From NCBI RefSeq assembly GCF_014306625.1, contig NZ_JACRYL010000005.1, positions 1 through 64,000 of the forward strand: a stretch of 64,000 bases of DNA. The letters are read 5' to 3'. A program made the translations under genes and the position numbers. Shown piece after piece: positions 58,407 through 64,000 of the stretch. Positions within the stretch are counted from its first letter, which is position 1. Each line of letters starts with the position of its first letter. Source of the stretch: Pedobacter fastidiosus (lineage in GTDB: Bacteria > Bacteroidota > Bacteroidia > Sphingobacteriales > Sphingobacteriaceae). The notes under the pieces were generated by a model. It did not search any database and was not told the DNA's origin. It saw only the letters and a program-made list of their open reading frames with translations.

Positions 58407-58501
58407 AAATATTTTTATTCCTTATAATTTATTATTGAACAAATGCTAAAAATAACGCTATATTTATTTACAGCTTACATTAACCAAGTATTTTTTAGCC
58501 A

Positions 58502-59056
58502 TTGTCAGACTATATCCAAAATATACGGCAGGGAAACCATAAATCATTTGAAATAGTTTTTAAACTATGGCATAAGAAAGTGTATGGCTATTTTTTTAAG
58601 AAAACTGCGTCAGATGATATTGCCGAAGAGCTAACTCAAATGGCTTTTGTAAAGCTTTGGCGATTTAAACATACACTTACAGAAGATTATCCTTTGGATG
58701 TGCAATTATTTAAAATTGCCAAGACTACGCTTCTTGATTATTTCAAAAAACAGGCAAACGACGAGCGTAATCTTAACCTTTATTACGAAGAGATCTCTAA
58801 TAAAGCAACCGAACAAAGTCTTCAGTTTGATATAAATAAACAGCTTGAAGTTGTTTTAAATTGCTTACCTCCAACCCGAAAACAGGTTTTCGTTTTAAAC
58901 CGGCTTCAAGGCTATTCTTATAAAGAAATTGCCGAACAACTTTCAATATCGCCCAGAACGGTAGAAAAACACATTTCTCTTGCCATAAAACAACTTAATG
59001 GCTATGCCTACTTACCCACCTTTATCGTCCTGATAAATTTATTTCATTCCCATTAA
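58502..59056 (+). CDS. ECF RNA polymerase sigma factor
   Basis: This is a 184-residue sigma-70 family factor starting from TTG (an in-frame TAG lies two codons upstream). Region 2 is AEELTQMAFVKLWRFKHTL and region 4 is YSYKEIAEQLSISPRTVEKH. It sits 33 bp before a FecR anti-sigma gene and a SusC/SusD pair, the standard transmembrane-signalled Sus arrangement. Confidence 0.94.
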   Translation: MSDYIQNIRQGNHKSFEIVFKLWHKKVYGYFFKKTASDDIAEELTQMAFVKLWRFKHTLTEDYPLDVQLFKIAKTTLLDYFKKQANDERNLNLYYEEISNKATEQSLQFDINKQLEVVLNCLPPTRKQVFVLNRLQGYSYKEIAEQLSISPRTVEKHISLAIKQLNGYAYLPTFIVLINLFHSH

Positions 59057-59089
59057 GGGTTATTGCCAAATTGAATCGTATTAGTAAAT

Positions 59090-60112
59090 ATGAGTATATC
59101 TGAGGAGCTATTAGCCAGGTATTTTAAAGGTGATTGTACCCCGGAAGAAAGGCTTTCGGTAGTGAATTATTTAAATGGAATTGATGCCTTACCAGATCAT
59201 TTACTTAGTAAAGATGATTGGGATGATGCAGAGGATGCAAAAATCTCTGATGAAAAAAGTGATGAATTATTTGCTGCAATAAAAAAGCAAACCATTTCAA
59301 AAACATTAAAATTAAAGCGCTTAAAAATAATTTCGGCCGCGGCCATTGTTTTAGTGATGTTAACCATTGGTTTGTTAATGTTAAACCAAGCCGAACCAAA
59401 TTTTAGTGTAGCAAAAGCTAAAACAAACAAGAAAGAAGATAAAGCACCAATTGTTTGGAAATCATTTGTGAATTACACCGATAATAATCAATCGCTTGAA
59501 TTGCCCGATGGTTCTGAAGTAAAAGTTTATCCGGGAGGAGAATTAAGCTATGCAATACCATTTATAAAGCAAAATCGGGAAATTTATTTAAAGGGTAAAA
59601 GTTTTTTTCAGGTTGCAAAGGATAAGAAACATCCGTTTATCGTTTATTCAAAAGGAATATCGACAACAGCATTGGGAACTTCTTTTACCATTACAGCCCC
59701 AGAAAAAAGCAAGCTCATAAAAATTGAATTGCATACCGGTAAAGTTTGGATTAAAAATATATCAGAATCAAAAAATATTTTATCATTCAGTAAAATTTTG
59801 ACACCTGGCAACGAGTTGGTTTATAATATTGTAAAACAACAGGTTAAAGTAATTGACAAAACTTTACTTGCTAAAGAGCTGGCCAAATCAAATGAGTTAA
59901 ACTTTACACAAGCATCGTTAAAAGATGTTTTTGAGAAATTGAAGACACATTATAAAATTGAAATTATTTACAGCGAAGCGGATGTGGATGAAATTTCTTT
60001 TACTGGGACCATTAACCTAAATCAAAAAGTAGAAAAAATACTTAAAGAAATAACCGAATTAAACAAACTGAACCAAACCAAAACAACTTACGGCTATATC
60101 ATAAGCAAATAA
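59090..60112 (+). CDS. FecR family anti-sigma factor
   Basis: This 340-residue membrane anti-sigma factor has an N-terminal sigma-binding part (LLARYFKGDCTPEERLSVVN), a transmembrane helix (about 81-100, KIISAAAIVLVMLTIGLLML), a FecR domain (SLELPDGSEVKVYPGGELSY and GTSFTITA), and a C-terminal DUF4974 (about 270-340) of the secretin/TonB short-domain fold. It would hold the upstream sigma factor until signalled by the outer-membrane receptor. Confidence 0.95.
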   Translation: MSISEELLARYFKGDCTPEERLSVVNYLNGIDALPDHLLSKDDWDDAEDAKISDEKSDELFAAIKKQTISKTLKLKRLKIISAAAIVLVMLTIGLLMLNQAEPNFSVAKAKTNKKEDKAPIVWKSFVNYTDNNQSLELPDGSEVKVYPGGELSYAIPFIKQNREIYLKGKSFFQVAKDKKHPFIVYSKGISTTALGTSFTITAPEKSKLIKIELHTGKVWIKNISESKNILSFSKILTPGNELVYNIVKQQVKVIDKTLLAKELAKSNELNFTQASLKDVFEKLKTHYKIEIIYSEADVDEISFTGTINLNQKVEKILKEITELNKLNQTKTTYGYIISK

Positions 60113-60201
60113 AACCACCATATATTTTTACAATCTCAACTTGCTTTAAAATAGCGAACAGGGATTTTTTTGCCCAAAAAAACAAACTAATAATTATAAC
60201 T

Positions 60202-63200
60202 ATGCTTAGAAAACTTACAAAACACTTGTTCTTTTGCGTGCTGTTAATTACAGTCGCCGCAACTGCTCGGGCTCAAACATCGGAGATTACCGGGATTGTA
60301 AAAGACGAAACAGGACAACCACTCATCGGTTCTTCCATTCTTTTACTGAACACCAAAACTCAAGAGAAAAAAGGGATTATGGTGAATGCAGATGGTAAAT
60401 TTTTAATTACCGGCTTATCTGCAAATGTTCCTTATAACATTAGTGCATCTTTTATCGGTTATACAACCAAAACAATTGAAAATTATCTGCTAAAAGCAGG
60501 TGAGCAAGCAACTTTAATGATTCAGCTTGTTCCTGCTTCATCATCTTTAACTGATGTGGTAATTGTGGGTTATGGCAGTCAGAAAAAGAAAGATGTTACA
60601 ACAGCAATAGCGAGTATAAAAGCTTCGGATTTAGAAAACCAGCCGATTAATAATGCGGCAGAAGCAATGGTTGGTAAAATGGCAGGCGTTCAGGTTTCGC
60701 AAGGATCAGGAACACCTGGCGCTGCATTATCCATTAAAGTTCGTGGCGTGGGCACCATCACTGCCGGCTCTAGCCCGCTTTATGTAATTGATGGTGTGCC
60801 GATTTCGGGAGACAATATTAATACGCTTAATACAAATGACATCGCATCGATTGAGGTTTTAAAAGATGCATCATCGGCCGCAATTTATGGGTCGAGAGGT
60901 TCAAATGGTGTTGTTTTAATTACAACAAAGCAAGGGAAAAGCGGTGCGGCAACCATCAGTGTAAATAGCTATACTGGCTGGCAAAGTTTAGCCCATAAAA
61001 TTGATATGATGGATGCGTACCAATACTCTCAAATGGTTTTAGAATCCAGAAACAATACATATTCTGATGCCATGGATGCAATTAATCGTAAAAATGCAGC
61101 AACCGGATTACCAGTTATAGCCTACAATATTAATGATAGCAATGCCCAACGTTTAGTAAATTCTGGAAACAATACGAGTGCTGTAATCCCAACGGAAGTA
61201 TTGCCATATTTACAAGGACAGCAGGGTTTAACCAATACCGATTGGCAGGATGAAATTTTCAGAACTGCAAAAATTCAAAGCCATTCGGTTTCTGCATCAG
61301 GCGGTAGCGAAACTTTGAAATATTACGGTTCCATGGAATATTTTGATCAGGATGGTGTGATTTTAAACAGCGGTTTTAAACGTTATAGTGCTAGGTTAAA
61401 TCTTGAAGGAACAAAAGGTCATTTCAGGTACGGTGTAAATTTAACTCCATCGGTTATTAAAGAAAAAAGAGTAAATGCAAATGGTGCATATACCGCATTT
61501 AATTCCGGAGGTGTTAATCAGGGTGGAATAGTTGCTTCCGCCTTACATTATGCGCCTATCTTTCCTGTTTACAACAATGATGGAAGTTACAGTTTTGCAC
61601 AAAACTCCTGGAGTCCGGGTCAGGTTACAGCACTGCCTAATGGTTCGTTAATATCAGGAAATGGCGCAACACAGGCGTGGAATCCGGTAGCGCTTGCTAT
61701 GCTTCAAAAAGATGATGTAGGCTCGAACAGGTTGACTGGTAGTGCCTTTGTAGAAGCCACTATTCTAAAAGATTTAAAATATAAAATTCAGTTAGGCATC
61801 GATTTATTTAACAGCTCGGAAGATACTTTCCGGCCTTCTGTTTTCCCTCAGTCAAATACGGCTGGCAACCCCCTAACGGATGCTTCAGGCAGTTCGAGAA
61901 CGATAAAAGAAACCAATTGGTTATTGGAGCAAACATTAAACTATACCAAAACTTTTGGTGATCATAGTTTAACGGCACTATTAGGCTGGTCTAACCAAAA
62001 AGACGATTTGAGTGGCAACTACGCAATTGCATCAAGAGGTTTTATTAGTGATCAGATTGAATATCTAAACGCAGGTATTGTTACAAGTGGCGGTTCAACC
62101 AGATCTCAATGGGCTTTAGCCTCGGGCATTGCAAGGTTGCAGTACAGCTATAAAGGCAAATATTTATTTACCGGTTCGGTAAGAGCGGATGGTTCATCTA
62201 AATTTGGCAAAAACAATAAATGGGGCTACTTCCCGTCTGCTTCTGTAGGCTGGAGATTATCTGAAGAAAATTTCCTAAAAGAAGTTAAAGCAATTTCTGA
62301 TTTAAAATTAAGAGCCAGTTATGGTTTAACAGGCAACTTTAATATTCCAACTTATGGTTCGCAAGGATCGATGACCAGTTATGGTTATGTTTTCGGGGGC
62401 GCAACGCCTTCTGTTGTTAATGGTGCGGCAACTTATGCTTCTCCAAATGATGACTTGAGATGGGAAAAAACAGCACAGTTAAACGTTGGTTTGGATGTTG
62501 CTTTTTGGAATAACCAATTAACATTATCTGTTGATGCTTACAACAGTAATACCACCGATTTATTGTTAAATGTCCCCGTGCCATTATCTACAGGTTTTGC
62601 TACAGAACTTAAAAACATAGGTAAAGTAAACAATAAAGGTATCGACATAAACTTGGGTACTACACAGCAATTTGGTGCTGTAAAATGGAGCGCAAACGCT
62701 AACTTCTCTAAAAACAAAAATAAAGTTGTAGAGTTAGGCCCTGGCAATGCAGACATTATCAGAACAGGTTCTGTGGCCAATGCATATTTCTTAACCAGAG
62801 TTGGTGAGCCAATTGGTTCTTACTACTTGCCTGTTGTTTTGGGTGTTTTCAAAAACCAGGCTGAAGTAAATGCGTACCCACATTATACTGATACACAAGG
62901 TAATTATGATTTGAATACGTCTGAACCTGGAGATTTTAAATACAAAGATGTTGATGGTGACGGTGTAATCGATTTAACAAAAGACCGTGAAATTGTGGGT
63001 AATTACCTTCCTAAATTTACCTATGGTTTTGCTACATCGGCAGAATATAAAGGCATTGATTTAAATGTTTCCATGCAAGGTGTTTATGGTAATAAAATCC
63101 TGAACCTTTCCCGCAGGTATTTCGCCAACAAAGAAGGAAACATGAACAACATGATAAGCTCTTTAGATAGATGGGTTTCTGAAAGCAATCCAGGCAGCGG

Positions 63201-63513
63201 ACAAGATGTTAGGGCAAATCGTGTAGCCAAAGGGAGCAATGGTACAACATCTACATGGCATATCGAAAATGGTTCTTATTTACGCATTCGTAATATTGCT
63301 CTGGGTTATACTCTCCCTGAAGCCATAGTTAAAAAATTAACTTTAACTAAGGTTAGGCTTTACTTTTCCATGCAAAACCCTTTCACCTTTACAAAATATA
63401 CAGGCTACAATCCTGAGGTAACAAACAGATCTGAAGCAACTACAAATGGGGAAGATTATGGCGTTTACCCTACTGCAAAAACAACATCAATCGGTATTAA
63501 CATTACTTTATAA
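60202..63513 (+). CDS. SusC/RagA-family TonB-linked outer membrane protein
   Basis: This is a 1103-residue porin with a signal peptide ending at ARAQ, a carboxypeptidase-regulatory-like domain (about 26-112), VVIVGYGSQKKKDVTTAIAS, a plug (IDGVPISGDN, IYGSRGSNGVVLITTKQG) and a complete barrel ending TTSIGINITL. No STN domain precedes the regulatory domain, although a sigma factor and FecR are encoded just upstream. The SusD gene follows after 85 bp. Confidence 0.95.
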   Translation: MLRKLTKHLFFCVLLITVAATARAQTSEITGIVKDETGQPLIGSSILLLNTKTQEKKGIMVNADGKFLITGLSANVPYNISASFIGYTTKTIENYLLKAGEQATLMIQLVPASSSLTDVVIVGYGSQKKKDVTTAIASIKASDLENQPINNAAEAMVGKMAGVQVSQGSGTPGAALSIKVRGVGTITAGSSPLYVIDGVPISGDNINTLNTNDIASIEVLKDASSAAIYGSRGSNGVVLITTKQGKSGAATISVNSYTGWQSLAHKIDMMDAYQYSQMVLESRNNTYSDAMDAINRKNAATGLPVIAYNINDSNAQRLVNSGNNTSAVIPTEVLPYLQGQQGLTNTDWQDEIFRTAKIQSHSVSASGGSETLKYYGSMEYFDQDGVILNSGFKRYSARLNLEGTKGHFRYGVNLTPSVIKEKRVNANGAYTAFNSGGVNQGGIVASALHYAPIFPVYNNDGSYSFAQNSWSPGQVTALPNGSLISGNGATQAWNPVALAMLQKDDVGSNRLTGSAFVEATILKDLKYKIQLGIDLFNSSEDTFRPSVFPQSNTAGNPLTDASGSSRTIKETNWLLEQTLNYTKTFGDHSLTALLGWSNQKDDLSGNYAIASRGFISDQIEYLNAGIVTSGGSTRSQWALASGIARLQYSYKGKYLFTGSVRADGSSKFGKNNKWGYFPSASVGWRLSEENFLKEVKAISDLKLRASYGLTGNFNIPTYGSQGSMTSYGYVFGGATPSVVNGAATYASPNDDLRWEKTAQLNVGLDVAFWNNQLTLSVDAYNSNTTDLLLNVPVPLSTGFATELKNIGKVNNKGIDINLGTTQQFGAVKWSANANFSKNKNKVVELGPGNADIIRTGSVANAYFLTRVGEPIGSYYLPVVLGVFKNQAEVNAYPHYTDTQGNYDLNTSEPGDFKYKDVDGDGVIDLTKDREIVGNYLPKFTYGFATSAEYKGIDLNVSMQGVYGNKILNLSRRYFANKEGNMNNMISSLDRWVSESNPGSGQDVRANRVAKGSNGTTSTWHIENGSYLRIRNIALGYTLPEAIVKKLTLTKVRLYFSMQNPFTFTKYTGYNPEVTNRSEATTNGEDYGVYPTAKTTSIGINITL

Positions 63514-63598: not shown

Positions 63599-64000
63599 AT
63601 GAAAAAATATATTATATCAATCTTAACATGTGGCCTAATTATTACGGCTACATCTTGCAAGAAGTTTTTAGATTTGAAACCCCTTGATTCGTACACAGAA
63701 AATACTTTTTATGTTGATGAAAAAGGTTTACAAGGTGGTTTAGTAAGTTGTTACGATGCTTTGCAAACCGATAGTTTGTATGGAAACAATATGCTTACTT
63801 TGGGCGAAATTCGCGGCGATAACGTTACCGATAATGATCCCGGTTCTGGTGCTGGTGTACGTAATTCTATCGAAGTATTTTCTGAAACATCTGCCAATAA
63901 CATATTATCAGGTGCATGGCAAGGGCACTATAAAGCAATTTACAGAGCCAATATTATTTTAGACCGGGCACCGGCAATCAGCATGGCCGATGCGACTAAA
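63599..64000 (+). CDS. SusD/RagB-family lipoprotein, 5' part
   Basis: The first 134 codons of a SusD-like nutrient-binding lipoprotein run to the edge of the window. The signal ends in the lipobox ATSC (Cys20), followed by KKFLDLKPLDSYTENTFYVD and LVSCYDALQTDSLYG. Later come NILSGAWQGHYKAIYRANII and LDRAP, the normal N-terminal SusD block. It acts as the lid of the preceding SusC. Truncated only by the window. Confidence 0.93.
   Translation, partial: MKKYIISILTCGLIITATSCKKFLDLKPLDSYTENTFYVDEKGLQGGLVSCYDALQTDSLYGNNMLTLGEIRGDNVTDNDPGSGAGVRNSIEVFSETSANNILSGAWQGHYKAIYRANIILDRAPAISMADATK

Follow-up and report, generated by a model that had tools for sequence, protein, structure and literature searches.

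In the FecI-FecR-FecA and PupI-PupR-PupB systems, an extracytoplasmic function (ECF) sigma factor, a membrane regulator of the FecR type with an STN-like C-terminus and a TonB-dependent receptor are encoded in a common gene order, and the STN domain of the receptor is the part that meets FecR or PupR. Sigma/FecR loci of Bacteroidota are linked in the same manner to SusC/SusD transporters, with a SusC in which an STN, an N-terminal extension (NTE), the plug and the barrel follow one another. The NTE is present in most SusC transporters; the paper that solved its structure (Gray et al. 2021, PMC7782687) gives the NTE no known function, describes the SusCs of sigma/anti-sigma loci as carrying an STN besides the NTE, and takes the role of the NTE as distinct from that of the STN. 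The locus described here lies at 58502-63513 of a stretch of Pedobacter fastidiosus DNA (assembly GCF_014306625.1, contig NZ_JACRYL010000005.1, positions 1-64,000, forward strand; this whole stretch of 64,000 nucleotides is called the window). It is built from the same families in the same gene order as the STN-bearing loci of Bacteroidota, 12 of which are found in this genome, but its receptor has no STN. From sequence comparisons we favour, with moderate confidence, the view that in the clade to which this locus belongs the NTE, and not an STN, would be the receptor module that touches FecR and reports the substrate.

The open reading frames (ORFs) listed for the window follow each other as sigma, fecR, susC and the start of susD, all on the + strand, with these features:

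58502..59056, + strand: ECF sigma factor of 184 amino acids with a TTG start (Pfam Sigma70_r2 and r4_2)
59090..60112, + strand: FecR anti-sigma/sigma regulator of 340 amino acids (Pfam FecR, PF04773, at residues 131-219; FecR_C, PF16344, at 270-328)
59324..59380, + strand: predicted transmembrane segment of FecR, about residues 79-97, placed by eye within a long predicted helix (54-98)
59885..60109, + strand: predicted STN-like C-terminal domain of FecR, about residues 266-340 (Pfam FecR_C; modelled with alternating strands and helices)
60202..63513, + strand: SusC-like TonB-dependent transporter without STN, 1103 amino acids (Pfam CarboxypepD_reg at residues 29-109, Plug at 128-237)
60202..60276, + strand: signal peptide region of SusC, about residues 1-25, assigned from sequence; the NTE profile begins at residue 26
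60277..60567, + strand: NTE (CarboxypepD_reg, long-loop type), residues 26-122, PF13620 58.8 bits and PF13715 35.2 bits; proposed FecR-paired module
60553..60576, + strand: SusC residues 118-125, which we take to be the TonB box region from their sequence and their position ahead of the plug
60583..60912, + strand: plug domain of SusC, residues 128-237 (Pfam Plug, E 7.3e-21)
60913..63510, + strand: beta-barrel of SusC, residues 238-1103, the rest of the ORF; in related loci, exchanged with respect to FecR and NTE

The regulator thus has a FecR domain, a membrane helix (by eye) and a predicted STN-like C-terminal domain, with an ECF sigma gene adjoining, and the transporter has the CarboxypepD_reg, plug and large barrel of a SusC and is followed by a SusD. 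In the SusC the signal peptide is followed directly by the CarboxypepD_reg domain, that is the NTE, and then by plug and barrel. Pfam searches down to E<=1 detect no STN in this protein, and a home-made STN profile, run with filters off on the 57 receptors classed as STN-less, gives no N-terminal match, its sole match being at residues 441-461 of the receptor of locus L102 (E=30). The first-pass annotation of the window, which had described an STN-less SusC with a regulatory-like domain behind its signal peptide, adjacent to and in order with sigma and FecR, had proposed a structure prediction of residues 25-115. An AlphaFold2 model of residues 25-127 (103 residues, mean predicted local distance difference test score, pLDDT, of 89.4, with block means of 90-97 up to about model residue 90 and a disordered C-terminal tail) shows seven strands, no helix of four or more residues and an NTE fold without an STN; its structural relatives are the NTE of the BT3090 SusC (9hfj) and the transthyretin-like domains of carboxypeptidase D, and, by profile, the NTE of Bt1763 (6ytc). 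A hidden STN is ruled out, because the profile searches are negative and the modelled fold is of the SusC NTE type, so that both parts of that description hold. The domain therefore has the fold of the usual SusC NTE (PF13715) and its position ahead of the TonB box, and differs from it in a PF13620 score that exceeds that of PF13715, in longer loops and in its linkage to FecR.

The evidence that carries the proposed pairing of FecR and NTE comes from comparing FecR distances with the distances of each receptor part, every part being controlled for the others (partial rho with permutation p, low p values being the permutation floor). Among 51 STN-bearing loci, FecR follows the STN (0.53-0.57, p=0.002, the floor) and does not follow the NTE (-0.18 to -0.25), the plug (about 0) or the barrel (0.10-0.11, p 0.08-0.13). 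These loci are the yardstick of the method: the known partner of FecR stands out in the distance test. When 99 STN-less loci are treated in the same way, FecR tracks the NTE (0.31), with values of 0.01 for the plug and 0.12 for the barrel (p=0.03), and after thinning to 36 divergent loci the NTE reaches 0.37 (p=0.003, the floor), the plug -0.08 and the barrel 0.08 (p=0.15). Within FecR, FecR_C is the part that best tracks the NTE at all five thinning levels (0.31-0.38). In other words, FecR tracks only the STN in the STN-NTE-plug-barrel receptors of Bacteroidota, whereas in the NTE-plug-barrel receptors of the clade it tracks the NTE. Segments of 24 columns slid along the receptor place the boundaries of this association: in STN-less receptors they give 0.12-0.33 across the NTE, with peaks at about residues 13-36 and 77-108 (0.32-0.33 at the latter), and fall near zero from residue 117 on, at the NTE/plug junction (after about residue 116); in STN-bearing receptors most of the STN region scores about 0.4-0.6, and on reaching the NTE the values drop to no more than zero.

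The pairing can also be followed where barrels have been exchanged in nature. With FecR clusters drawn at 38% identity or more and barrel clusters at 45% or more, and with a background of 33% for the NTE and 39% for the plug in unrelated pairs, seven cluster pairs of STN-less loci have the same FecR with a different barrel, and their NTEs are 47-78% and their plugs 30-50% identical. Conversely, 12 cluster pairs have different FecRs with the same barrel, and here identity is 25-45% (median 34%) for the NTE and 56-87% for the plug. In the STN-less exchanges the NTE is thus kept with FecR, whereas in the lone STN-bearing exchange found (different FecR, same barrel; STN 20%, NTE 60%, plug 75%) it is kept with the barrel. 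Pair by pair, 82 combinations among the 99 loci show FecR at 40% or more and NTE at 45% or more with a barrel below 35%, and none shows FecR at 40% or more and barrel at 45% or more with an NTE below 35%. As an example, the receptor of L089 and the SusC of the window are 64% identical in the signal peptide, 82% in the NTE, 50% in the plug and 30% in the barrel. Read residue by residue, five STN-less pairs show the shift in similarity around residues 119-150; the STN-bearing pair shows it at residue 118, where STN and NTE join.

Relatives of the locus are widespread. FecR orthologues of at least 50% identity occur in 27 of 99 genomes of the genus (its own included), the next match being at 33-35%, and an STN-less SusC follows all 26 other orthologues as well as the 14 next-nearest FecRs that were fetched. 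An isolated loss of the STN or a broken gene in this genome is ruled out by these 26 orthologues; among them, L090 has an internal deletion in its SusC and L083 a short sigma ORF. In another of the 26 (L066:4612-7924, genome G041), a frameshift or a sequencing error divides the SusC into two overlapping ORFs. The first-pass annotation had also raised the prospect of many similar loci lacking an STN, and such loci do exist: among the best 80 of the 423 FecR relatives that named genomes yielded, the 80 coming from Pedobacter, Mucilaginibacter, Sphingobacterium, many Chitinophagaceae, Pontibacter and Rhodocytophaga, FecR adjoins an STN-less SusC in 71 cases and an STN receptor in one, two being unclear and six having no such receptor in reach. 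In a FecR tree built by a quick method, 56 of 57 STN-less entries form one clade with a support of 100 in the Shimodaira-Hasegawa-like approximate likelihood ratio test (SH-aLRT), set against 68 STN-linked FecRs; in a wider tree with the same 68, 53 of 54 do so (SH-aLRT 98). The presence or absence of an STN requires two changes on the FecR tree, against about 40 when labels are shuffled. The FecR of the window falls inside the STN-less clade in both trees, and its receptor has the long-loop NTE directly behind the signal peptide. By these comparisons the locus is no local oddity; it is a member of an old, supported clade that reaches the Chitinophagaceae and Cytophagales. A Bacteroidota-like pair of FecR and SusC type (L244) was also met on a contig labelled Beijerinckiaceae (Alphaproteobacteria), which is probably mis-binned.

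The NTE of the clade is itself of a distinct type. Matches of at least 71% identity to the NTE of the window number 26 in 98 genus genomes and belong without exception to the SusC that adjoins the FecR orthologue; the 27th match (genome G071) drops to 44%. Three lengthened elements can be located in the SusC of the window:

60349..60372, + strand: NTE loop of residues 50-57, longer in the clade
60421..60435, + strand: NTE loop of residues 74-78 with the clade-typical Tyr78
60484..60498, + strand: NTE residues 95-99, an inserted hairpin (Y-x-L-K)

The best 30 of 62 plug matches in this genome comprise the SusC of the window, one STN-bearing receptor and 28 other SusCs. Loops found in 44 divergent clade members, at residues 50-53, 76 and 95-99, are missing from these 28; specifically, the hairpin of residues 95-99 is found in 98-100% of the 44 and in 0-11% of the 28. 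Residues 54-57 are absent from the NTEs of the STN class. Tyr78 occurs in 95% of the thinned clade, in none of the 28 SusCs, in 2% of the STN class and in 85% of 20 unlinked, mostly Oar-like receptors, and N50, F69, Y95 and S104 occur more often in the clade than in either the STN class or the unlinked receptors. The loops join strands 2-3, 4-5 and 6-7 and, by this strand order, should therefore sit at one end of the domain. Long loops as a trait unique to the clade had to be abandoned, as Oar-like receptors have them too: a long-loop CarboxypepD_reg is common to both, and the barrel family differs (OMP_b-brl in the Oar-like receptors).

The model of FecR (mean pLDDT 84.7, predicted template modelling score, pTM, 0.48) matches BDI_1681 (4m0h) and PupR (6ovk) in Foldseek, and a predicted STN-like nature of FecR_C is in keeping with its weaker matches to the STN of PupA (2a02, E 0.07) and to secretin N0 domains. 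The locus is not classed as a FecIRA system of the STN type because its receptor was searched for an STN and has none; it probably works like these systems. The NTE of SusC would touch FecR in the periplasm, probably at the STN-like C-terminal domain. Substrate binding or transport by SusC/SusD would alter how the NTE meets the periplasmic part of FecR, which would then free the sigma factor, and the freed sigma would raise expression of the susC/susD operon. As a more tentative extension, the clade may represent a second, independent form of receptor-to-FecR signalling in Bacteroidota, in which a transthyretin-like NTE replaced the STN once in the ancestry of the clade, with the three lengthened loops as a candidate contact surface and with barrels that can be replaced without parting the NTE from its FecR. 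A clade whose receptors have no STN and whose NTE is evolutionarily paired with FecR offers a specific, testable job for the NTE, at least here. If confirmed, surface signalling would be able to change its contact domain, and the NTE would be a natural part for re-aiming receptors, with the break points used in nature open to view. The literature searches gave no title or abstract describing a class of STN-less sigma/FecR SusCs, though a review of Bacteroidetes TonB transporters may already mention such receptors.

Several observations weigh against a contact between NTE and FecR, which is itself read from an evolutionary association. Tracking of the NTE extends to the cytosolic part of FecR (0.22-0.30), and contact does not explain this. 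In a first set of 54 STN-less loci, FecR tracked the plug (0.15, p=0.02-0.03) besides the NTE (0.36; barrel 0.06), and when this set was thinned to 18 loci the NTE fell to 0.16 (p=0.05), with 0.09 for the plug and -0.06 for the barrel. Along the STN-less receptors, bumps of 0.18-0.19 appear beyond the NTE, at residues 165-188 and 240-263. As to the exchanges, the cluster pairs are not independent, some pairs have members in common and do not count as distinct events, the 82 pairs come largely from three loci (L089, L091 and L223), and a single STN-bearing exchange is thin evidence. Moreover, most of the STN-less loci were chosen for the resemblance of their FecR to that of the window, a bias towards a single clade, and other STN-less lineages may therefore exist outside it. 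Finally, long NTE loops are also found in 17 of the 20 receptors that are not linked to FecR, mostly Oar-like. In addition, of all receptor parts the NTE lies closest to fecR along the DNA, and shared inheritance would therefore yield much of the same pattern.

This last point leads to the main rival explanation, according to which barrels recombine and the NTE is a passenger beside fecR that gives FecR no signal. It agrees with the place of the NTE as the segment adjoining fecR and with the correlation of the cytosolic part of FecR, and breaks at domain joints would be favoured by folding alone. A passenger effect, however, should fade with distance, yet residues 77-108, at the end of the NTE away from fecR, are among the highest segments; the signal peptide is low (0.10-0.14, which is weak evidence because this segment is short and variable), and the drop sits at a domain joint. 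Furthermore, STN-bearing receptors drop one domain earlier and their NTE is without association, though for the exchanges this rests on the one case, and the loops of the clade's NTE differ from those of the 28 other SusCs of the genome. Overall, closeness on the DNA is a rather unlikely explanation, though one to be taken seriously.

Another possibility, suggested in part by the first-pass annotation, is that a different STN receptor or cross-talk drives the sigma/FecR pair, the adjacent SusC being merely a target. Proteobacterial systems include known cases of unlinked receptors and of cross-talk. The search of this genome gave 14 FecR_C loci, and in 12 of them an STN receptor lies directly downstream of its own FecR; the two without are the locus of the window and L033. 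Pfam finds no STN match in a receptor-sized frame apart from a FecR in this genome, though it missed one divergent STN (at the C13 locus, L030), and a divergent orphan STN receptor could therefore escape detection. Across nine genomes of the genus, nine STN matches are without a listed FecR upstream, the FecR list being the best 150 of 197 matches, and orphan STN receptors may therefore exist in relatives. Across families, however, FecR tracks the NTE of the SusC next to it, which an unlinked receptor would not bring about, and each of the 12 STN receptors found in this genome stands beside its own FecR. Control by another STN-bearing receptor is thus improbable, and the other suggestion of that annotation, a signal that comes by another route, gains support from the old clade, which has kept sigma and FecR with an STN-less SusC, and from the association of NTE and FecR.

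More doubtful still is the view that some other partner of the NTE, for instance a particular TonB, is what ties it to the locus. TonB specificity has been proposed for the NTE by Gray et al. 2021. No tonB was noticed among the ORFs listed at the locus, and in STN-bearing receptors FecR is not tracked by the NTE; the association is therefore special to loci in which FecR is without an STN partner. That FecR needs no receptor contact, acting by periplasmic sensing or proteolytic release with the SusCs as ordinary targets, is compatible with a contact that is proposed from evolutionary association, but leaves both the FecR/NTE association and the loss of plug and barrel association unexplained and is very improbable.

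In the nine genomes of the genus, a Pfam STN match lies within 2 kb downstream in 123 of the 150 listed FecR_C matches, in agreement with the initial expectation that FecR-linked SusCs usually bear an STN. When classed from the DNA, the other 27 comprise 18 receptors with a divergent STN, six loci with no such receptor adjacent and three STN-less receptors, so that for most of the 27 the lack of a Pfam STN match did not mean an STN-less receptor. As a check, 34 of 36 loci fetched as STN-positive were classed as STN, one giving no FecR entry and one having another protein as its nearest ORF. The three STN-less cases are the locus of the window, its orthologue in genome G008 and L146. STN-less receptors behind FecR are thus rare in the genus (three of 150 listed FecR_C loci), a rough lower figure because at least two further STN-less loci, L033 and L098, are outside the 150. 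Among receptors with both domains (loci L020-L180), the STN stands before the NTE in 59 of 59, the opposite of the domain order given in PMC7782687. At another, orthologous locus, and at this one only, an 899-amino-acid ORF upstream of sigma (L074:8712-11411) opens with a stretch that looks STN-like by eye.

The second STN-less receptor linked to a FecR in this genome, L033 (G000 contig C17, 9800-18600), is Oar-like in its barrel and lies beside a phospholipase C-like neighbour. Like the SusC of the window it stands behind a FecR without an STN, but its FecR is outside the STN-less clade in both FecR trees, and it is possibly an independent loss of the STN in another FecR lineage.

Two further features flank the genes described above:

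58450..58469, + strand: AT-rich box upstream of sigma, a candidate promoter element, conserved in an alignment of 26 orthologous upstream regions
63599..64000, + strand, continuing beyond the window to about 64969: SusD-like lipoprotein (PF14322, PF07980; L032:8600-9967, L032 being the fetched stretch that holds the locus, L numbers denoting loci and G numbers genomes)

In the same 26 loci, conservation upstream of susC is weaker than upstream of sigma, with a second, weaker G-rich block ahead of susC, and the promoter that this sigma would read is not revealed by the conservation on either side. Beyond susD, and outside the window, follow genes for a DUF218 protein and a histidine phosphatase (L032:10046-11919, about 65046-66919 in window numbering), which may hint at phosphate-ester substrates. 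Finally, GTG or TTG starts are found in 11 of the 26 orthologous sigma ORFs, the TTG of the window being of this kind, and such starts would suggest a deliberately weak translation of the sigma factor.

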